From Bacteroidales bacterium (lineage in GTDB: Bacteria; Bacteroidota; Bacteroidia; Bacteroidales; GCA-2748055): a DNA stretch of 36,955 nucleotides. This document shows positions 27,366 to 36,949 of this stretch, one piece after another. The stretch spans positions 1 to 36,955 of the forward strand of contig JARGFM010000012.1 in NCBI GenBank assembly GCA_029210725.1. The letters run 5' to 3'. The translations under genes were made by a program, and so were the position numbers. The number at the start of each line of letters is the position of its first letter. Positions within the stretch are counted from its first letter, which is position 1. The notes below the pieces were generated by a model. That model searched no databases. It saw only the letters and a program-made list of their open reading frames with translations, and was not told the origin of the DNA.

Positions 27366-28550
27366 TTATATATATTTGATATTTACTTCCTTCAGGAATT
27401 TTTCTTCCAGCAGGCGTGCCATGCGTTTCACCACGGTTCTCCTGATCTCCAGGTCGATAGGAAGATTTGGATCCTGGTGTGCAATATTTACCCTGGTCCC
27501 TACGATGAAATGTATCTCATCACTCTGTTGAACCAGTTTGACAATCCGGTCGGCCGGACCCTTGCCAAGGGCGTAGGAGGGTGAGAAATCTTTGAGTATT
27601 CGCGTAACCTTGGTAATGGTCAGTATTCCTTCGGTCACCAGGTCCATTCCGTCCATATGGGAGACAGGAGGCAGTTCCGGATCTTCAAATACCAGGCTGT
27701 CTTCGATTTCCAGGTTCAGTTCGCGGGCAATGATATCGGCCGTTGTGGCTCCGCAAATCACTTTTTTTCCTTTGAATCCCCTGATGGTATTTCCCAGTTC
27801 TTTATCGTTTTCTTCTTCATAGGGCGGACCGGTAACAATCATCAGCTTTCGCGGTTTCCGAAAGTAGATACTGGCACAACTGGTATCGTCCCTGGAACTG
27901 TATCCATCGTTTCGGTGAGCCATGTTCACCATTTTTGATGCCAGTTTCAAGGCGGATATTTTCGGACTGTTCTGAACCAGTTTTATGGCGTACTCCTGCA
28001 TAAGCTCTCTGCCCCAACCCAGGGGAAACTGGTCGGAGCCCATTCCTGACTGAGCAATGCCATCACTGCAGAAGATGATCCGGTCCTCTTTTTTGGGTTC
28101 AAAGCTGCAGGACAGAAGTTCTTTGCCTCTGTTCTTTTCACTGTCAAGGGTTATGCTCCTCCAGGCAGGATCAAAGGGCTTGTTGTCTCTCAGGATGATG
28201 GTCTGGGGATTATCAAACTCCAGGATATTAATCTGTCCGTCGTGTTCAATATCCACGATAGTGAATGTGGAATAGCTCATTTGACGCTCACTGCATACCG
28301 GCAGGGTATTCATGATGATCTCGGCGATCCTCTCCACTTCCTTATGTTCAATGGTGAAATTCACGGCCATCGTGGCAGTAAGGGTAGCCAGTACATTGGC
28401 CTTCACCCCGTGTCCCATCCCATCGGAAAGTACCACAATGGTTCGGTTCTCCTCTTTTACCTTTCGACTGAGAAAAACATCCCCGCAAATACGTTCCTTG
28501 CCATAATTGCGTTGATCGCAGGCGACCTCCATATAGAATTTGCCGCTCAT
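27366..28550 (-). CDS. SpoIIE/PP2C-type protein phosphatase with C-terminal extension
   Basis: A 394-residue protein. Residues about 1-230 form a PP2C/SpoIIE catalytic domain with metal ligands in CGDVF (D24), VVLSDGMGHG (D43), IFCSDGIAQSG (D163) and SRDDTS (D221/D222). Residues about 235-394 are an extra domain I do not recognise (MIVTGPPYEEE, then KVICGATTADIIAREL). Ser/Thr phosphatases of this type are known partners of putative sensory (group C) [FeFe]-hydrogenase-like proteins. Its ATG overlaps the stop of the H-cluster/PAS gene (ATGA), so the two are coupled. Target unknown; an anti-sigma-antagonist-like protein would be usual but none is in the window. Confidence 0.85.
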   Translation of the reverse strand: MSGKFYMEVACDQRNYGKERICGDVFLSRKVKEENRTIVVLSDGMGHGVKANVLATLTATMAVNFTIEHKEVERIAEIIMNTLPVCSERQMSYSTFTIVDIEHDGQINILEFDNPQTIILRDNKPFDPAWRSITLDSEKNRGKELLSCSFEPKKEDRIIFCSDGIAQSGMGSDQFPLGWGRELMQEYAIKLVQNSPKISALKLASKMVNMAHRNDGYSSRDDTSCASIYFRKPRKLMIVTGPPYEEENDKELGNTIRGFKGKKVICGATTADIIARELNLEIEDSLVFEDPELPPVSHMDGMDLVTEGILTITKVTRILKDFSPSYALGKGPADRIVKLVQQSDEIHFIVGTRVNIAHQDPNLPIDLEIRRTVVKRMARLLEEKFLKEVNIKYI

Positions 28551-30409
28551 CGGTTTTTCAGGTCCTGCTTCAGATTATACGATTCAATAATCGAGTTAAG
28601 CATCCTTTCAGCCTCCGAAGTGCCCTCCCCCAGGATAAAGCCGATTTGTTGTGCCAGGCTCAGATTTTTGTCGATGACTTCGTTGAGTCTTTTGACTACC
28701 TCCTCTTTTTGTACTTCGGGGGCTGACATATCACGGATTACCGCACCAACAATCTTATTTTTTTCAATAACAAATACACTAACATTCAGAATCTTGCCAT
28801 CGTGTCGAATATCCCGGTTGGTGATGGATTCATTGTGTTTCAGTACATAAGTGAAGAGATTGTAGAAATTAAAGGGGAGAAGGGTTTTTAAATCTGCTCC
28901 GGCAAGTCCGGGCACTACTTCATTGATCTCCCTGGCCTCCTCTCCCAGCATAGTGATAAAACTGTCATTGGTCTGGATAATCTTCAGGTTCATGTCACAG
29001 ATAACCACCATGGAGGGCAGTTTATGCAGCATGCGGCGGACAATCTCAGAAGCTTCTCTGGCTGCCCCCTTCTCTTTTTGAGCCAGTCTCTCCGATTGCT
29101 TGAGTGCCTCCTGGGCCTGAGCCAGCTTCTCATTGCTTATTTTCAGGGACTGGATATGATTCTGTCTGTTATGCGAAGCATAGGTGTTACACATCTCCTG
29201 AATGGCCAGTCCCTGCGCAATCGCGATGGCAAAGTCGGTGCAGCTTGCATATCCGCAGCCACCGCAACCTACTGCGGAAGGATTTGCCTGGCCGATCTCT
29301 TCCAGGATCTGATTCAGTTTGCTTTCTGATGGAAGGGGAAGGGACTGGTCGTCCGCTTTGAATGTGCGCGTCATATCCAGGGATGCAAACTCAGTAATGC
29401 TGGCCTCCCATTCATAGCTGTCCAGAGTCTTTAAACGTTTTTCCACATATTTGAAGAGCTGGCTCTGCCGCAGGAACCTTTTTCCCCCGGCGCTTGTACC
29501 CCTTCCCATGAGGAACTCCTTATAGAACAGGTTGAAATGGTGTTTGATGGTTCCGATATTCTCTTCGAATTCTTTAATGGCATCGATCATCCCATCGCCC
29601 TCCACGGTGATTACCGGAGTCAGGTGAAGTTCCTCCTCGATACCGGCTGCCTGGATGATCCCGTTGGCCACAGGAAAGAAGGATCCCTTATAGCCCAGTG
29701 GGGGGTCAAAATCGCTGTATTCCAGATCTGTTTCATGGATATTGGCCTCCTTAAAAAGCTCCCTGAGTTCTACAAAGGTTATGGCCAGATCGATGCGGCC
29801 ATCCCCGTCGAAGCGCCTGATCTCGTCTTTACTGGCAATTAAGGGACTGATATATACCAGCAGTACCTCTTTACCGGCAATTTTCCGTACCACCCTGGCT
29901 GTAGCCGCATTCGGGGGGTCGATGGGCGCCAGGTTGGGAACAAGCCCGGGACTGTATTTTTCAACAAAAGAGACCGTTACCGGATCGTTTGACATGATAT
30001 AATACTTCCCCTTGCTCTTATCGAAGAGCTCTTTGTAGGCCCTGGCCACCAGGTCTGCCCCAAAGGCAACCTCTTGAATATATTCAAAGCCCAGTGCACG
30101 CAGCATGGTCACAAATTTCCTGTAGTCGGTGATATCCGGAAACTCGCCTGCAATGGAGGGGTCCACAAGTGCAGCCACCTCTTTTCCACTTTCCAGAATC
30201 TGGATCAACTCCTTTTTTGAATCTCTGATTTCAATGGCTCCCGGTCCGCAGACTGCCACACAGCTTCCGCAGCCAATACATCTTTCAGGGATGATCCCGG
30301 GTTTGATGCGTTCGCTCTGTACCCGGATCGCTTTCACCGGGCAGGCTCTTACGCAGGCATAACATGCGATGCATGTTTCGCTGTTGATTTTCAGGAGTGG
30401 TTCTGTCAT
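28547..30409 (-). CDS. H-cluster-type [FeFe]-hydrogenase-like protein with PAS domain; H-cluster cysteines lost
   Basis: A 620-residue protein. Two N-terminal [4Fe-4S] motifs are complete (C13/16/19/23 and C44/47/50/54). A hydrogenase large-subunit-like domain (about 65-330) aligns through its length with the kinase protein at 34961. A third Fe-S motif of the CxxCx4C...C type (C382/385/390/407), a coiled coil (about 415-460) and a PAS domain (about 460-560) follow. At the positions of the four H-cluster cysteines it has D142, L190, Y296 and F299, so it cannot hold a normal H-cluster. It is probably a redox or signalling relay to the coupled phosphatase. The frame is open from 30463, but ATG 30409 avoids overlap with the preceding gene and starts directly at the ferredoxin domain. 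Confidence 0.88.
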   Translation of the reverse strand: MTEPLLKINSETCIACYACVRACPVKAIRVQSERIKPGIIPERCIGCGSCVAVCGPGAIEIRDSKKELIQILESGKEVAALVDPSIAGEFPDITDYRKFVTMLRALGFEYIQEVAFGADLVARAYKELFDKSKGKYYIMSNDPVTVSFVEKYSPGLVPNLAPIDPPNAATARVVRKIAGKEVLLVYISPLIASKDEIRRFDGDGRIDLAITFVELRELFKEANIHETDLEYSDFDPPLGYKGSFFPVANGIIQAAGIEEELHLTPVITVEGDGMIDAIKEFEENIGTIKHHFNLFYKEFLMGRGTSAGGKRFLRQSQLFKYVEKRLKTLDSYEWEASITEFASLDMTRTFKADDQSLPLPSESKLNQILEEIGQANPSAVGCGGCGYASCTDFAIAIAQGLAIQEMCNTYASHNRQNHIQSLKISNEKLAQAQEALKQSERLAQKEKGAAREASEIVRRMLHKLPSMVVICDMNLKIIQTNDSFITMLGEEAREINEVVPGLAGADLKTLLPFNFYNLFTYVLKHNESITNRDIRHDGKILNVSVFVIEKNKIVGAVIRDMSAPEVQKEEVVKRLNEVIDKNLSLAQQIGFILGEGTSEAERMLNSIIESYNLKQDLKNR

Positions 30410-30416
30410 AGTATGT

Positions 30417-30677
30417 TTACATCTCTCCAAATTCGCTTTCCAGGATAGCCAGAACATTTTCATCGCTCACTTCCTCGTACAGCCGCGATCCAATCTTCAG
30501 TACAGGCCCTTTGTTACAGTCGCTGAAACAGTGATTACCTTTCAGGATGACCTCTCTTTCCAGCTGATGGTCTTTCAGGTATTTCTGAACCACCTGGAGA
30601 GTTTTCTTGTTTCCGCGGCTGAAACAGGAGCTGCCCAGGCATATTTTTATCTCCTTTTTCAAAAGTGTCATGGCCAT
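30417..30677 (-). CDS. Thioredoxin-like [2Fe-2S] ferredoxin (HndB-like)
   Basis: An 86-residue protein with the four-cysteine pattern of thioredoxin-like [2Fe-2S] proteins, C13-x4-C18 and C50-x3-C54 (CLGSSC; HCFSDC). Homologous domains occur in NuoE and at the N-terminus of NuoF-like hydrogenase subunits, and as the separate HndB subunit in Desulfovibrio. It could supply the cluster that the neighbouring HydB has lost, or feed electrons to the H-cluster/PAS protein seven bases downstream. First gene of the leftward operon. ATG 30671 is an alternative start. Confidence 0.88.
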   Translation of the reverse strand: MAMTLLKKEIKICLGSSCFSRGNKKTLQVVQKYLKDHQLEREVILKGNHCFSDCNKGPVLKIGSRLYEEVSDENVLAILESEFGEM

Positions 30678-30834: not shown

Positions 30835-31311
30835 ATGGCTGATCAAGCAGCACGAATAGAAAAGATCCTGCATCAGTTCCCGCAGATAAAGAGAAATGCA
30901 CTGATTCCACTGCTACAGGCTGTTCAGGATGAGTTTGGTTTTATTTCCGAGGAGGCTGTCGCGAAAATAGGCGCCCATCTCTCGCTACCCACCAGCAAAG
31001 TCTATGGCCTGGCCACTTTCTATAACCAATTCTCTTTCTCCCCCAGGGGATTCTATCATGTAGTGCTTTGTAATGGCACCTCCTGCCATATGGGTGGCGC
31101 CGGGGACTTGTTAAATGAAATCACCAAGCTGCTGGAGATCGGTGACGGGGAGACCACACGCGATGGCTTGTTCAGCCTGGAAGTACAATCCTGTATAGGG
31201 GCATGCGGTCAGTCGCCGGTGATGTCTGTGAATGGAACATACTTTTCGGGAATCTCGGTAAAGGAGGTTCGGGAGATCATTAAACAATACAGGGAAGATG
31301 CGGAAAGATAA
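30835..31311 (+). CDS. hydC: NAD-linked [FeFe]-hydrogenase subunit HydC (NuoE-like)
   Basis: A 158-residue NuoE/24-kDa-type subunit. A helical N-terminal domain is followed by a thioredoxin-like [2Fe-2S] domain with C79-x4-C84 (CNGTSC) and C120-x3-C124 (CIGAC), all four ligands present. In trimeric HydABC enzymes it sits against HydB and passes electrons to or from the FMN site. First gene of the rightward operon; its last 14 bases overlap hydB. Confidence 0.93.
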   Translation: MADQAARIEKILHQFPQIKRNALIPLLQAVQDEFGFISEEAVAKIGAHLSLPTSKVYGLATFYNQFSFSPRGFYHVVLCNGTSCHMGGAGDLLNEITKLLEIGDGETTRDGLFSLEVQSCIGACGQSPVMSVNGTYFSGISVKEVREIIKQYREDAER

Positions 31312-33229
31312 AGCTTTATTGTTAAAGCTGGCCCGGAGTGATCGTTCCGGGTTGAATCCCGATGAATTGAAGCGGTCGGACGAACTCAGAAAAACAGAGA
31401 TTTCCAGGCCACTGGTAATGGTGAACAGCTCCACATCCGGGATTGTTGCAGGGTCGCTTCTTACCTGGAAGGCCGTTGAAAGCTATGCAGCTGATCGTTC
31501 CATTGAGCTTGATCTGACCGAAACCGGAAGCATAGGACTGAGTTCGGAAGATCCGGTGGTTTCCGTACAGATCCCGGGACGTACCCGGATTTTCTTCAGC
31601 AGGATCACGGAGGGAAGGGTCCCCTCTCTGCTGGATGACCTTTTTCACCAGGTAGTCCCTGACGGGAATGTCATTGGCCAGCTGCTTAGGGAAGGGCAGG
31701 AGCCCTGGGAAAATGTCCCGGCCCTGGCGGATCTTCCGTTTTTTGCCCTGCAGAACCGTATTGTTATGGAGTCCTGCGGCATCATCGATCCCTTCTCTCT
31801 GGAGGAGTATATGGCCGGTGGGGGATACGGGGCATTTATAAGGACCATTCGCAGTTATACCTTCAGTGAGGTTTGTGAACTGGTGACTGCCAGTGGCCTG
31901 AGGGGCCGGTCGGGGGGAGGTTTTTCGACCGGTGAAAAATGGAAAGCAGCCTTCCGTACCCCTTCGGATCAGAAATATCTGATCTGTAATGCCGAAGAGA
32001 GTGATCCCGGGGCCTTTATGGACCGCACGCTTATGGAGGGTAATCCATTTCAACTGCTTGAGGGTATTTCTATCGCGGCATATGCCATTGGTTCCAACAG
32101 AGCTTATATCTACATCCGCAGCGAATATAAAGATGCCATCAGGCGCATTAACAATGCAATCAAGGAGTTGAGAGAAATCGGGCTGCTGGGTGACAATATT
32201 CTGGACAGCGGGTACAACTTGCAGATCTCCCTGCGTAAGGGTCCGGGGGCTTTTGTTTGCGGAGAGGAGACTGCCCTGATAGCCAGCCTGGAAGGCAAGA
32301 GGGGAATGCCATCTTCCAAACCGCCTTATCCCACTACCTCCGGCTATCTGGGACGACCCACCGTGGTTAATAATGTGGAGACCCTTTCCAACCTGCCCGG
32401 GATCATCAGGAAGGGTCCGGAGTGGTTCAGGAGCATAGGTACGGAAGAGAGTCCCGGGACAAAAATATTCAGTATCTCGGGACGTGTGGCGCTGTCCGGT
32501 TTGGTGGAGGTCCCCATGGGAACCTCCTTCGATACGATCATAAACAAGATTATTGGAGGGGCAGGAAGGGGCAGGGAACTGAAAGCACTGCATTTAGGCG
32601 GACCTTCGGGATGTATGGTTCCCCTCGATCTGATGGATCTTCCGGTAAGTTATGAGGCTTTGAAGGAGAAAGGACTGATCATGGGCTCCGGAGGGGTTCT
32701 GGTGATGGACGACAGGACCTGCGTGGTGAATACAGTCAGGTTTTTCATGTACTACCTGAATAAGCAGAGCTGCGGAAAGTGCATACCCTGCAGGGAAGGA
32801 ACCAGGAGAATGGCAGAAATCCTTGCCAGTATTACCCGGAAGCCGGCAGATGAGGAGGGCTCTACCACCCTGGAAAGATTCAAGGGGGTGATGCAGCTGG
32901 AGAGTCTGGCTGAGGTGATGAAGGATACCTCCCTTTGTGGTCTGGGTCAGAATGCGCCGAACCCTGTGGTCAGTACGCTGAAATATTTCAGGCACGAATA
33001 TGAGGAGCATATCTTCGAAAGGCGCTGTCCCTCGAACACATGTACTGAGTTACGAACCTGGTACATTGATGTGGACCTTTGCACCGGATGTACGGTTTGT
33101 GCCAAAAAATGTCCGGCTGATGCAATCATTGGTACGGCGAGGCACCCCTATTTTATTGTTCAGGAGAAATGCATTGGATGCGGAATCTGCTATGATGTTT
33201 GCAAGTTTTCAGCGGTCTACTATAAATAA
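31298..33229 (+). CDS. hydB: NAD-linked [FeFe]-hydrogenase subunit HydB (NuoF-like) with cysteine-free N-terminal domain
   Basis: A 643-residue flavin subunit. FMN/NADH-binding motifs are intact: GRSGGGFSTGEKW (203-215), NAEESDPGAFMDR (231-243) and GPGAFVCGEETALI (315-328). The [4Fe-4S] of the NuoF type is present (C492, C495, C498, C547), as are two C-terminal ferredoxin motifs (C595/598/601/605 and C625/628/631/635). The N-terminal region (about 37-120) is a thioredoxin-like domain whose usual four [2Fe-2S] cysteines read N43, G48, S78 and S82; no Cys occurs before residue 160. It should still oxidise or reduce NAD(H) but lacks one cluster of the canonical chain. Confidence 0.92.
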   Translation: MRKDKALLLKLARSDRSGLNPDELKRSDELRKTEISRPLVMVNSSTSGIVAGSLLTWKAVESYAADRSIELDLTETGSIGLSSEDPVVSVQIPGRTRIFFSRITEGRVPSLLDDLFHQVVPDGNVIGQLLREGQEPWENVPALADLPFFALQNRIVMESCGIIDPFSLEEYMAGGGYGAFIRTIRSYTFSEVCELVTASGLRGRSGGGFSTGEKWKAAFRTPSDQKYLICNAEESDPGAFMDRTLMEGNPFQLLEGISIAAYAIGSNRAYIYIRSEYKDAIRRINNAIKELREIGLLGDNILDSGYNLQISLRKGPGAFVCGEETALIASLEGKRGMPSSKPPYPTTSGYLGRPTVVNNVETLSNLPGIIRKGPEWFRSIGTEESPGTKIFSISGRVALSGLVEVPMGTSFDTIINKIIGGAGRGRELKALHLGGPSGCMVPLDLMDLPVSYEALKEKGLIMGSGGVLVMDDRTCVVNTVRFFMYYLNKQSCGKCIPCREGTRRMAEILASITRKPADEEGSTTLERFKGVMQLESLAEVMKDTSLCGLGQNAPNPVVSTLKYFRHEYEEHIFERRCPSNTCTELRTWYIDVDLCTGCTVCAKKCPADAIIGTARHPYFIVQEKCIGCGICYDVCKFSAVYYK

Positions 33230-33235
33230 GGAGTG

Positions 33236-34960
33236 ATGGGAATTACACTTGTTGTAAACGGAAGGAATATAGAAGCGGAGAAGGGGGAGACCATCCTTTC
33301 TGCCCTGAATCGACATGGCATGCATGTCCCTACCATCTGCAGTGTGAAGGGACTGAGTCCTTCCGGGGCCTGCCGAATGTGCGTGGTTGAGGTGGAAGGA
33401 AGAGAAAAGCTGGTACCCTCCTGCTCCTATCCCATCGAAGAGCCCATGAAAATAATGACCCATTCTCCCAGGGTTCTGAGGGCCAGGATGACCAACGTAG
33501 AGCTCTTGCTATCCAACCATCCGGACGACTGCCTGTATTGCGAACGCAATGGTTCCTGCGAGCTGCAGTCCCTTTCGGAAGATTTGAATATCAGGGAGAG
33601 ACGTATACCCGGAAAGAGAAGCCTCTATAAGATCGACAAATCAAGTCCTGCCATCATCCATGATCCTTCAAAATGTATTTTATGCGGGCGCTGTGTCAGA
33701 ATCTGTGAGGAAATTATGAGCACCTCAACTCTGGACTTTGCCCACCGGGGGAATGAAATGAGGATATCCACCACCCTTGGCAGGCCCCTGAACTACTCTA
33801 ATTGCACATCCTGCGGACAGTGTCTGAACGCCTGTCCCACCGGGGCCCTGATCGAACATATTCAATTCCCCGAACTGGAAACTCATATACATGCCCCCGG
33901 CAAACTGGTGGTGGCACAGTACAGTGCTGCCGTGGCCGTCTCCCTGGCAGAAAGGCTTGGTTATAAGCCCGGTACCGATATGAGCGCTATCATCAACACC
34001 GTCTTGCGCCGCTATGGGTTTGATCTGGTATTTGAAAGCTCCTTCGGGGCCGATCTGATGATCCTGGAACAGGCCAGGATTTACCAGGAACGTAAAAAAA
34101 AGCCACAGGCCTTTCCGTTGATTACCAGCTCCTGTCCCGCATGGATACATTATGTCGAACAGTATTATCCGGAATTAATCCCCTTTCTTTCTCCCCTGAA
34201 ATCGCCCCAGCAAATATGCGGCACGCTGATCAGGGAGTGGTTTGCCAGGACCGGTATAGAGGATGACAAAGAGATTGTATCGGTGCTTATTTCTTCTTGC
34301 ACAGCGGCCAAGACAGAGGCACGGAGGGTGGAGATGACCCGCTCCGGAAAACCTGTGATTGACCTGGTCCTGACTACCCGCGAACTGCTCAGAATGATTA
34401 AACTCAGTGGACTGGAGCTGGAACAGCTGGAGCCCGGACTGCCTGATGCACCATTCTGTCTTTCCAGTTCTGCAGGTAAACTATGCGCTGTGTCGGGAGG
34501 TGAAACAGAAGCCACGGTCCGGACCATTTATACTCAGAGCACGGGCAGTGAAATGCTTCCTTCGAAACTACATCGATTCAGGGTACATAAATCTTTTCGC
34601 GAAATGACGGTGAAAGCCGGCTTATCTGAGATAAGGGTTGCCACCGTCAGTGGTCTGAAAAATGCTGTTGCACTGATGGAAGAGCTAAAAAAGGGGAAGA
34701 GGGAACTGGATTTGCTCGAGGTAATGGCCTGTCCGGATGGATGTATCAACGGAGGCGGACAGGCCATCCCGGCAGATGAAAAGCTGCTTCGTGCCAGGTC
34801 CAGGGCCATCTATGACCTGGATAACGGAAGCCCCTTGCATTCGGCGCACGATAACCAGGTTGTTCAAGATATTTACCAGGATCTTCTGGGCGAACCCGGA
34901 GGCGAAAAAAGCAGGGATCTGCTCTATACACTCTTTACAAAGAGGGAGGTATTGCTATAG
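33236..34960 (+). CDS. hydA: [FeFe]-hydrogenase catalytic-type subunit HydA, divergent active site
   Basis: A 574-residue protein with the full modular layout of CpI-type enzymes. It has an N-terminal [2Fe-2S] domain (C35, C46, C49, C63), a His/Cys3 [4Fe-4S] (H95, C99, C102, C108), two [4Fe-4S] motifs (C147/150/153/157 and C190/193/196/200), and the H-domain. All H-cluster cysteines are present at C300 (TSSCPAW), C355 and C499/C503 (MACPDGC), by chance numbered as in Clostridium CpI. Other active-site residues differ: S299 for C, S353 for M, A358 for K, Q279 and I282 for E. GTG 33233 is an alternative start. Six bases after hydB, zero bases before the kinase. H2 turnover is uncertain. Confidence 0.9.
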   Translation: MGITLVVNGRNIEAEKGETILSALNRHGMHVPTICSVKGLSPSGACRMCVVEVEGREKLVPSCSYPIEEPMKIMTHSPRVLRARMTNVELLLSNHPDDCLYCERNGSCELQSLSEDLNIRERRIPGKRSLYKIDKSSPAIIHDPSKCILCGRCVRICEEIMSTSTLDFAHRGNEMRISTTLGRPLNYSNCTSCGQCLNACPTGALIEHIQFPELETHIHAPGKLVVAQYSAAVAVSLAERLGYKPGTDMSAIINTVLRRYGFDLVFESSFGADLMILEQARIYQERKKKPQAFPLITSSCPAWIHYVEQYYPELIPFLSPLKSPQQICGTLIREWFARTGIEDDKEIVSVLISSCTAAKTEARRVEMTRSGKPVIDLVLTTRELLRMIKLSGLELEQLEPGLPDAPFCLSSSAGKLCAVSGGETEATVRTIYTQSTGSEMLPSKLHRFRVHKSFREMTVKAGLSEIRVATVSGLKNAVALMEELKKGKRELDLLEVMACPDGCINGGGQAIPADEKLLRARSRAIYDLDNGSPLHSAHDNQVVQDIYQDLLGEPGGEKSRDLLYTLFTKREVLL

Positions 34961-36949
34961 ATGGAACAGAAGTTGCATAAGAGGGGTCTGGTTTATACCG
35001 TTAAGGATTTGTGCAGGGTATGTTATACCTGTGTCAGGGAATGCCCGGTAAAGGCCATCCGGATCGTGGACGGTCAGGCCGAGGTGGTGGCAGAACGCTG
35101 CATTGCTTGCGGGAACTGTACCATAGTCTGCTCCCAGGGAGCAAAGGTATATGAGCGCTCTATCGACCGGGTGGAGGCTCTCCTGCAGGGTGATTCAGAG
35201 GTGGTTGCCCTTGTGGCGCCAAGTTATGTGGCCGAGTTTGAGGAAATTCCGGATTTAGCTCTTTTTGCAGGCATGATAAAAAAGCTGGGGTTCACACAGT
35301 TGTTTGAGGTGGGTATGGGAGCCGATCTGGTGGCAGAAGCTTATGAAAAGCTGATCAATGAGAATCCCGGTAAGGGATATATTAATTCAGACTGTCCGGC
35401 CATTGTCTCTTTTATTGAAAAATACCATCCCGATCTCACAGGCTCGCTTATCCCGGTGGTATCTCCCATGGTGGCCACGGTTCGCTATATCAGGCAGGTA
35501 CTGCATAGCCAGGCAAAGATGGTTTTCATAGGGCCCTGCGTGGCAAAGAAAGGGGAATCGGACGAAGTGGATGAGGTACTTACTTTTGCCGAACTGCGTA
35601 GTATGTTTACCTCCATGCGGGTCCGTGCTTCCAATGTGGAACCTGCAAGCTTTACACCGCCCCTGGCCATGAAAGGCGCTGGCTTTCCCGTAAGTCGGGG
35701 CTTACTTCAAGCCATGAACCTGGAGGGTAACCATGTGGACCAACGGGTTATTGTAGCAGAAGGCAGGGTTCACTTCCAGGAAGCGATCAGGGAGTATGCT
35801 TCGGGAAAGCTGGATTCCATGCAGCTGGAACTTCTCTGCTGTGAGGGATGTATCATGGGTCCGGGTACCAGTCCCCGCGGGAAGAAGTTTGTCCGGAGAA
35901 GCCTGGTGCTTAACCATCTCTTCGGGAGACTGGATCAGGCACAGACAGAGAGTGAAGGGGTGAGGGCCGAAGGCTGCCGCCCGGATCTTAGCCGTTCCTT
36001 TAAAACAGACGATCAGCGGATCAAGGCTGGGCCGGAAGATGAGATCGATAAAGTACTTCTTCAGATGGGAAAGTTTTCTCAGCAGGACCATCTGGATTGT
36101 GGTGCCTGCGGGTATGATACCTGCCTGAGCCATGCCAGGGCGATCACCCAGGGACTGGCCGAGGTGGAGATGTGTCTTCCCTATTCCATTGACACCCTGC
36201 ACCAGACCATCCATAAACTGGCCGATTCCAAGCATAAGCTGCTTTCTGTGGAACAGGCGCTCCGGCAGAGCGAGAAGCTGGCACACATGGGGCAGCTTTC
36301 CGCGGGGATTGCGCATGAATTAAACAACCCGCTGGGAGTTGTAATCATGTACAGCAACCTGCTGCTCGAAGAGTGCGCCAGGGATCAGCAGCTGAAGGAG
36401 GACCTGGAGTTAATTGTGGAGCAGGCCGGAAGATGTAAAGACATTGTGGGCGGCTTACTGAATTTTGCCAGAAAGAATCAGGTTCTCTACAGCACCACCG
36501 ACCTGCTGGAGTTGATAAGAATGAGCACAGACTCCCTGATTTTCCCTGAAAATATTAGCTATTGCCTGAACAACCATCTCTCCAATCCTTATGCAGATCT
36601 GGACAGGGAGCAGATGGTTCAGGTGATCAGCAATCTGCTGAAAAACGGGATAGAGGCCATGCCCAACGGCGGGGCCCTTGCTGTAAGCCTCTCTGATAGC
36701 CACGACTGGGTAATTATCAGCATCCGGGATGAGGGTGCCGGCATCTCACCCGGAGATATGGAAAAGGTATTTGAGCCCTTCTACACGACCAAGGGAATTG
36801 GGAAAGGGACCGGACTTGGACTGGCAACCACCTACGGGATTGTTAAGATGCACCGGGGACAAATTGATGTAAAATCCAATGTAAACCCTGAAAAAGGGGC
36901 CACTGGCACCGAATTTACGGTTAAGATTCCACGTAAGCTTTTAAGCTAG
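34961..36949 (+). CDS. Histidine kinase with H-cluster-type [FeFe]-hydrogenase sensor domain (HydS-like)
   Basis: A 662-residue protein. Two [4Fe-4S] motifs (C18/21/24/28 and C47/50/53/57) lead into a hydrogenase-like domain that keeps the H-cluster ligands C145 (NSDCP), C193 (GPCVAKK), C294 and C297 (CCEGCIMG). A third Fe-S motif follows (C380/383/388/405). Then come a HisKA domain with phospho-His H452 (AHELNNPLG) and an HATPase domain (N box NLLKNGIEAM, G box DEGAGI, GTGLGLATTYG). Position 299 (CpI) is Asp, as reported for sensory-group members. No TM helices, so a cytosolic H2/redox sensor is inferred. It is translated directly after hydA; no response regulator follows within the window. 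Confidence 0.92.
   Translation: MEQKLHKRGLVYTVKDLCRVCYTCVRECPVKAIRIVDGQAEVVAERCIACGNCTIVCSQGAKVYERSIDRVEALLQGDSEVVALVAPSYVAEFEEIPDLALFAGMIKKLGFTQLFEVGMGADLVAEAYEKLINENPGKGYINSDCPAIVSFIEKYHPDLTGSLIPVVSPMVATVRYIRQVLHSQAKMVFIGPCVAKKGESDEVDEVLTFAELRSMFTSMRVRASNVEPASFTPPLAMKGAGFPVSRGLLQAMNLEGNHVDQRVIVAEGRVHFQEAIREYASGKLDSMQLELLCCEGCIMGPGTSPRGKKFVRRSLVLNHLFGRLDQAQTESEGVRAEGCRPDLSRSFKTDDQRIKAGPEDEIDKVLLQMGKFSQQDHLDCGACGYDTCLSHARAITQGLAEVEMCLPYSIDTLHQTIHKLADSKHKLLSVEQALRQSEKLAHMGQLSAGIAHELNNPLGVVIMYSNLLLEECARDQQLKEDLELIVEQAGRCKDIVGGLLNFARKNQVLYSTTDLLELIRMSTDSLIFPENISYCLNNHLSNPYADLDREQMVQVISNLLKNGIEAMPNGGALAVSLSDSHDWVIISIRDEGAGISPGDMEKVFEPFYTTKGIGKGTGLGLATTYGIVKMHRGQIDVKSNVNPEKGATGTEFTVKIPRKLLS

Follow-up and report, generated by a model that had tools for sequence, protein, structure and literature searches.

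The question raised by this locus is whether its HydABC still works as a hydrogenase, given that a preliminary description found the H-cluster cysteines of HydA kept and the known proton-relay residues lost. The window, by which we mean the whole stretch of DNA analyzed (36,955 bases), comprises bases 1-36955 of contig C12 (126,220 bases) in a genome of 3.81 Mb that is 98.6% complete. The coordinates and reading frame first given for hydA were correct (Table 1), and at the positions discussed below the HydA residue numbers equal those of CpI, which was aligned together with HydA of T. kivui, A. woodii and T. maritima.

Table 1. Features of the window and of contig C12 immediately beyond it
Feature	Position	Strand	Remarks
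SpoIIE-type phosphatase (HfsC-like)	27366..28550	-	
PAS-type H-domain protein (HfsB/HydS-like)	28547..30463	-	H-cluster cysteines lost
Small thioredoxin-like [2Fe-2S] protein	30417..30677	-	divergent module
HydC, NuoE-like [2Fe-2S]	30835..31311	+	5' of HydB
HydB, NuoF-like	31298..33229	+	NADH/FMN, C-terminal 4Fe-4S pair; 5' of HydA
HydA	33236..34960	+	574 aa; ATG 33236, stop 34958-34960; Pfam domains 2Fe-2S, NADH-G_4Fe-4S, two 4Fe-4S, Fe_hyd_lg_C, Fe_hyd_SSU; N-terminal sites for [2Fe-2S], His-ligated [4Fe-4S], two [4Fe-4S]
HydA, proton-relay stretch	34070..34132	+	relay lost (now Q279, I282, S299); R286 kept
HydA, motif L2, SSCTAA	34292..34309	+	S353, S354, C355, A358
HydA, C417 and new E423	34484..34504	+	codons and alignment
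HydA, codon starts, 279 to 319	Q279 34070, I282 34079, R286 34091, S299 34130, C300 34133, S319 34190		
HydA, codon starts, 353 to 417	S353 34292, S354 34295, C355 34298, A358 34307, C417 34484		
HydA, codon starts, 423 to 503	E423 34502, C499 34730, C503 34742		
HydS-type H-domain fused to HisKA/HATPase	34961..36949	+	3' of HydA; D299
Receiver protein	37003		past window
Receiver-kinase hybrid	37394		past window
Rex	38602-39222		past window

Codons and alignment agreed that the four [4Fe-4S]H cysteines, C300, C355, C499 and C503, match CpI. Read directly from the codons, the five relay residues were also as first described, with E279, E282 and C299 replaced by Q279, I282 and S299, and R286 and S319 retained. 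Two contacts of the 2Fe subcluster, M353 and K358, had been reported as changed to serine and alanine, which the codons confirmed, and next to them P354 is replaced by serine; P354S, A230S/T and V423E were absent from the earlier list. We take V423 and K358 to be located at the diiron unit of the H-cluster. Against motif L1, TSC[CS]P, HydA reads TSSCP, and against motif L2, MPCxxKK, it reads SSCTAAK; nor does it have the C299/E279/E282 relay of A3-type HydA. Residues M497, R286, S319, P324 and Q325 are retained in the window HydA (Q325 in 10 of 13 window-clade rows), and all N-terminal and [4Fe-4S]H cluster ligands are intact in 13 of 13 rows of HydA from this clade. The suggestion that the GxSTG block is unlike that of catalytic enzymes held for F417 to C/T and V423 to E, which are special, but not for the block as a whole, where canonical relatives mostly read xRSSAGKIFGxSGG. 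Judged from the aligned residues, the changes go beyond the relay: residues surrounding the 2Fe subcluster differ too, including position 358 (A or D) and E423, and the [4Fe-4S] half retains its cysteines. The change S232A was dropped as evidence because it also occurs in the active enzymes of T. kivui, A. woodii and T. maritima and is not diagnostic.

HydA fell below the cut-offs of both family models searched, scoring 350.6 against 405.95 for TIGR02512 and 610.1 against 765 bits for NF040763. Both were passed by L002, L003 and L036 and neither by L017 and L024, and L022, L026 and L027 passed TIGR02512 but not NF040763. An AlphaFold2 model had a mean pLDDT of 75.5, with values below 50 at residues 120-189 and elsewhere, and its top Foldseek match was T. 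kivui HydA1, which confirms the fold alone.

The residue set recurs in close relatives. Among the best 80 of 160 confirmed HydA relatives, the named ones being mostly Bacteroidales or Bacteroidota MAGs, 12 (L011-L021 and L023) have the same HydA type and three (L024, L025 and L078) a related one. Within the GTDB family a HydA match (E 1e-20) was found in 27 of the 28 genomes searched, and Q279, I/V282, S299, S/T353, S354, A/D358 and E423 occur in 14 of 14 copies from genus g1, although 12 of the 13 g1 copies other than the window's are L011-L021 and L023, so that this is largely one set counted twice. A related form without K358 and with E423 is present in all five copies from g2 (four) and g210 (one), which brings E423 to 19 of the 19 K358-less copies examined. 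The two copies from g207 have D299 but keep K358 and V423. Outside the family we compared 24 copies, the best-scoring among 237 genomes with a match and several of them also within the 80; position 358 is lysine in 22 and arginine in two, and position 423 is hydrophobic in 22 and glutamate in one. In all g1 copies positions 230, 299, 353, 354 and 417 are S, T or C, whereas across g1, g2 and g210 position 299 is S or R and position 417 is T, C, L or F, with E423 shared. Fixed in every g1 copy, and with dN well below dS, the residue set is not due to chance; the reported loss of the relay was borne out, and on these alignments the set is a lineage trait.

We measured the departure from canonical enzymes against a set of 24 canonical Bacteroidales HydA and six references, namely four solved enzymes plus the two further HydAs encoded in the window's genome. 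Sixty-three H-domain positions are invariant in this set, and at 12 of them every one of the 13 window-clade rows has another residue: A230, D267, E279, E282, C299, M353, P354, K358, G408, F417, V423 and G453. These include nine of 17 pocket or relay positions and three of the 46 others (Fisher p = 1.5e-4), the 17 having been drawn up post hoc with partial support from papers: the available text of PMC5506873 places A230, I268 and M353 near 2Fe, and that of PMC10055695 supports C299, M353, M497 and F417 as pocket positions. In the N-terminus, by comparison, 28 positions are invariant, and two of these vary in any window-clade row. A stricter test, which took columns with 97% or higher conservation across the other 65 loci and asked which had changed in a majority of the 16 K358-less clade rows, gave two of 43 columns in the H-domain (P354 and S411) and one of 63 in the N-terminus; E279, C299, M353 and K358 fall outside it because some relatives changed there too.

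On a tree of 87 HydA rows, built by a quick method with the pocket columns left out and with SH-aLRT support only, the minimum number of changes was one at E279, six at C299, three at K358 and one at E423. The K358 changes comprise that of the 16-row clade and two to arginine (L044; L076/L080), and a non-basic residue 358 and E423 are confined to this clade. Support was 99 for the 51-row E279-less clade, 96 for the 16-row K358-less clade and 100 for the 13-row window clade; the position of the root is uncertain owing to several long branches. The tree indicates a stepwise loss, of E279 once (51 rows), of C299 in at least six changes, and then the changes at 358 and 423 in one clade.

The partner subunits are intact. 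In 15 of 15 rows HydB has 18 of 18 conserved cysteines and HydC four of four, and 5 of 140 and 1 of 21 conserved columns, respectively, differ in a majority of the rows; both genes stand in the HydA operon with intact cluster ligands, as in A3-type enzymes. Beyond Rex, contig C12 continues with genes for FAD synthetase, acyl-CoA ligase, aminotransferase and 2-oxoacid:ferredoxin oxidoreductase, the last in three subunits (families downstream of the window were named via the relatives' copies, except that only its position and our reading identify the third of these subunits). The upstream module of SpoIIE, PAS and 2Fe-2S genes is present in 29 of 31 E279-lost loci, being missing in L022 and L088, versus none of 20 E279-kept loci (at least 6.5 kb upstream), and Rex lies within 9 kb in 33 of 35 E279-lost versus three of 25 E279-kept loci (at least 4.5 kb downstream), counts that represent few evolutionary events, so that Fisher values overstate their independence. 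A block of HydS, receiver and receiver/kinase genes separates HydA from Rex on the window's contig and in L011, L016, L017 and L020; it is missing in L012-L015, L018, L024 and L025, where Rex directly follows HydA.

The locus encodes two further H-domain proteins. The window HydS retains C300, C355, K358, C499 and C503, and among HK-type HydS proteins C300, C355 and K358 are found in all 60 loci with its ORF and C499 and C503 in all 59 with a readable motif. A genome-wide search for the HydS-kinase orthologue (E 1e-25) found none in 10 of the 19 K358-less genomes, namely G417 (97% complete), G453 (97), G273 (98), G175 (99), G354 (99), G463 (88), G455 (83), G464 (68), G454 (65) and G456 (58), in which the best HydS matches (36-41%) sit at the place of the PAS-type protein. 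The latter, in the window, has lost C300, C355, C499 and C503 and kept its ferredoxin, FeS and PAS domains, and most of this cysteine loss is common to the whole K358-less clade. Inside the clade all 15 rows lack C355, all 14 readable rows lack the third-motif cysteines, and C300 survives only in L024, L025 and L078; outside it, C300, C355 and C503 are present in 23 of 23 rows and K358 is absent. These outside proteins, without K358 yet with cysteines, mean that K358 loss alone is no proof of cluster loss, unless they too are empty.

H2 chemistry in this organism need not depend on the window HydA, since the same genome encodes two canonical copies (L002 and L003) as well as HydE, HydF and HydG, the three maturases lying together on contig C31. 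With canonical HydAs present, the maturases say nothing about the window HydA. Across the 19 K358-less genomes HydE and HydF were each found in 16 and HydG in 13, and HydG exceeded its cut-off in the genomes of nine of 15 K358-less loci versus 33 of 35 others (Fisher p 0.006). We rejected maturase loss as proof, because G460 and G461, which belong to that GTDB family and have canonical HydA only, likewise lack HydE, HydF and HydG, so that maturase absence does not follow HydA type; given their clustering in the window's genome, one missing contig could explain each absence. The altered protein is the only HydA match in G446 (88% complete; without HydE, HydF or HydG) and in G443 (82% complete; all three present), where the HydS kinase could be the client of the maturases. 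In total HydE, HydF and HydG were not found in G445, G446, G451, G458, G459, G460 and G461. Six of these seven genomes contain a full-length HydA match at 38-42% identity, and in G459, G460 and G461 the residues were checked and are canonical; either a missing contig or another maturation route may apply. TIGR03957 is HmdB and was set aside as irrelevant.

Taken together, these data lead us to favor, at about even confidence, an A3-like HydA without a working [2Fe] subcluster, in a HydABC that might instead couple NADH to ferredoxin or provide redox input. Under selection, HydA has kept its N-terminal clusters and [4Fe-4S]H ligands along with HydB and HydC, and residues described as holding [2Fe] and passing protons are replaced in a fixed way, the cation of K358 being lost and the acid of E423 added. 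Such a loss of cation and gain of acid would make a bound diiron-cyanide unit less likely. Electrons would move between NADH (at HydB), ferredoxin and the HydA cluster chain, and no useful rate of H2 production or consumption would remain, H2 chemistry falling to the two canonical copies elsewhere. More tentatively, HydABC may be a redox coupler or an input for the adjoining signaling genes, with the HydS kinase, two receivers and Rex downstream and the PAS protein and SpoIIE phosphatase upstream as putative partners; the retained NADH/ferredoxin modules, with Rex and the 2-oxoacid:ferredoxin enzymes nearby, point to coupler or input as the best reading. The basic residue at the distal cyanide is, we presume, lysine 358. 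The available text of PMC11376134, which calls this residue an arginine, reports that its change to Asn gave an enzyme without [2Fe]H signals and that Cys299 to Ser gave an inactive enzyme. Serine at 299 alone is not decisive, since in the portion of PMC12138974 available the equivalent Cys to Ser change in CpIII reduced activity by a factor of about ten without eliminating it. The maturases in most K358-less genomes, by which an H-cluster could be supplied, count against the favored reading, as do G443, with all three maturases beside its altered HydA, and the retention of M497, R286, S319, P324 and Q325.

The preliminary description had offered a slow, biased or sensory enzyme, or one not acting on H2; this is supported in part, the favored answer being among those listed. 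A slow, H2-uptake-biased or sensory hydrogenase with another second shell and proton path, for example via E423, seems to us unlikely, if a serious contender. Changes of C299 and M353 alone are ordinary in sensory enzymes, which still take up [2Fe] (PMC10055695, in its available text), CpII carries A230S, I268T and M353T (PMC5506873, likewise), and the accessible part of PMC10407848 reports a non-standard proton path in group D. The invariance of E423 in the K358-less copies, a locus full of sensor genes, and G443, with its maturases kept and no other HydA match, all fit such an enzyme. Yet the sensory enzymes are described in the text available from PMC10055695 as keeping the residues that hydrogen-bond the [2Fe] unit, whereas residue 358 of this HydA is A or D; the acid at 423 stands where most other-family copies are hydrophobic, and the locus' other two H-domain proteins are altered or often absent in the K358-less clade.

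It is improbable, in our judgment, that the emptied pocket was rebuilt for another ligand or cofactor, for instance a small polar molecule or, in line with a proposal for yeast Nar1, a [2Fe-2S] unit at C503. The S/T/C residues at 230, 299, 353, 354 and 417 with E423 in every g1 copy speak for it, as does Nar1, an H-domain protein reported to lack hydrogenase activity and to bind [2Fe-2S], perhaps in that cavity (PMC12621388, in the part available), but except for E423 the pattern is not common to g1, g2 and g210. Similarly doubtful is a combined reading in which HydABC turned into a redox device, its [2Fe] cavity re-polarized for non-diiron content (K358 lost, E423 gained, hydroxyl residues around) and fed by NADH to report to Rex, kinase and phosphatase. 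That the H-domain is simply decaying we regard as very improbable. Its rate is about 2.5 times that of the N-terminus in the window clade versus 1.3 in canonical relatives, as decay would predict. Slopes of 2.2-4.0 versus 1.3 in the five E279-lost groups tested show fast H-domain evolution to be general to such groups and not special to the K358-less clade, a point against the favored reading. Against decay, the frames are open in 80 of 80 relatives (the best 80 of 160), covering query residues 1-548 or more and starting at or before residue 7, and the pocket residues are fixed, not random. In pairs with usable dS, which was near saturation, dN/dS was about 0.02-0.04 in the N-terminus and 0.08-0.14 in the H-domain, and purifying selection on HydA remains; several pairs yielded no estimate.

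Among known systems the closest are the group A3 HydABC/BfuABC enzymes of T. kivui, A. woodii and T. maritima, which have the same three subunits and cluster ligands, T. kivui HydA1 being the best solved match by sequence and by fold; the window HydA differs in its replaced relay and [2Fe] pocket residues and in scoring under the NCBIfam cut-offs for A6 and for group A. Like the group C/D sensory proteins TmHydS and TamHydS, it has lost the relay and changed C299 and M353, with a non-cysteine at 299 and a small residue at 353 (S299, S353), but it has a group A architecture with HydB and HydC, keeps M497 and lacks K358. Pfam detected no PAS, kinase or C-terminal FeS output domain in it, and an FeS domain with a kinase or PAS domain in both neighboring H-domain proteins. 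In hfsABCD of Thermoanaerobacterium a PAS-type H-domain protein and a serine phosphatase also stand beside a hydrogenase (PMC11837493 and PMC5707799, in their available portions), whereas the window module is joined to HydABC, HydS, receivers and Rex and its PAS protein lacks the H-cluster cysteines. Nar1/IOP1 likewise retains an H-domain without hydrogenase activity, but it is a eukaryotic Fe-S assembly factor without HydB or HydC, whereas the window HydA is bacterial, lies in a hydCBA operon and is outside the eukaryotic CIA context of an H-domain without [2Fe]H. Hydrogenedentota A3 clusters with C1/C3 sensors resemble the window in having A3 genes beside sensory genes; as far as the available text of PMC11406978 goes, H-cluster motifs are hardly found in their C1 proteins, and their BfuA motifs, unlike those of the window HydA, are in general conserved. 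In the literature searched we recognized no HydABC of this kind and found no assayed close homologue of HydA.

Genome surveys that count hydA could score the window HydA as a hydrogen enzyme. The relatives form a ladder of close variants within one operon type, from the full set through loss of E279 and then C299 to a changed [2Fe] pocket, which makes both the order of hydrogenase dismantling and the role of HydABC without H2 directly testable. Elsewhere among the HydAs, aspartate at 299 occurs naturally with K358 kept in L022, L027, L034, L046, L047, L050, L056, L068, L069, L084, L133 and L134; since the PDB contains CpI variants in which C299D was made in the laboratory, these may be active natural counterparts. 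The second HydA of the window's genome, L002, reads TSCSP and, like A. woodii HydA1, has serine in place of C300 of CpI, which ligates [4Fe-4S]H.
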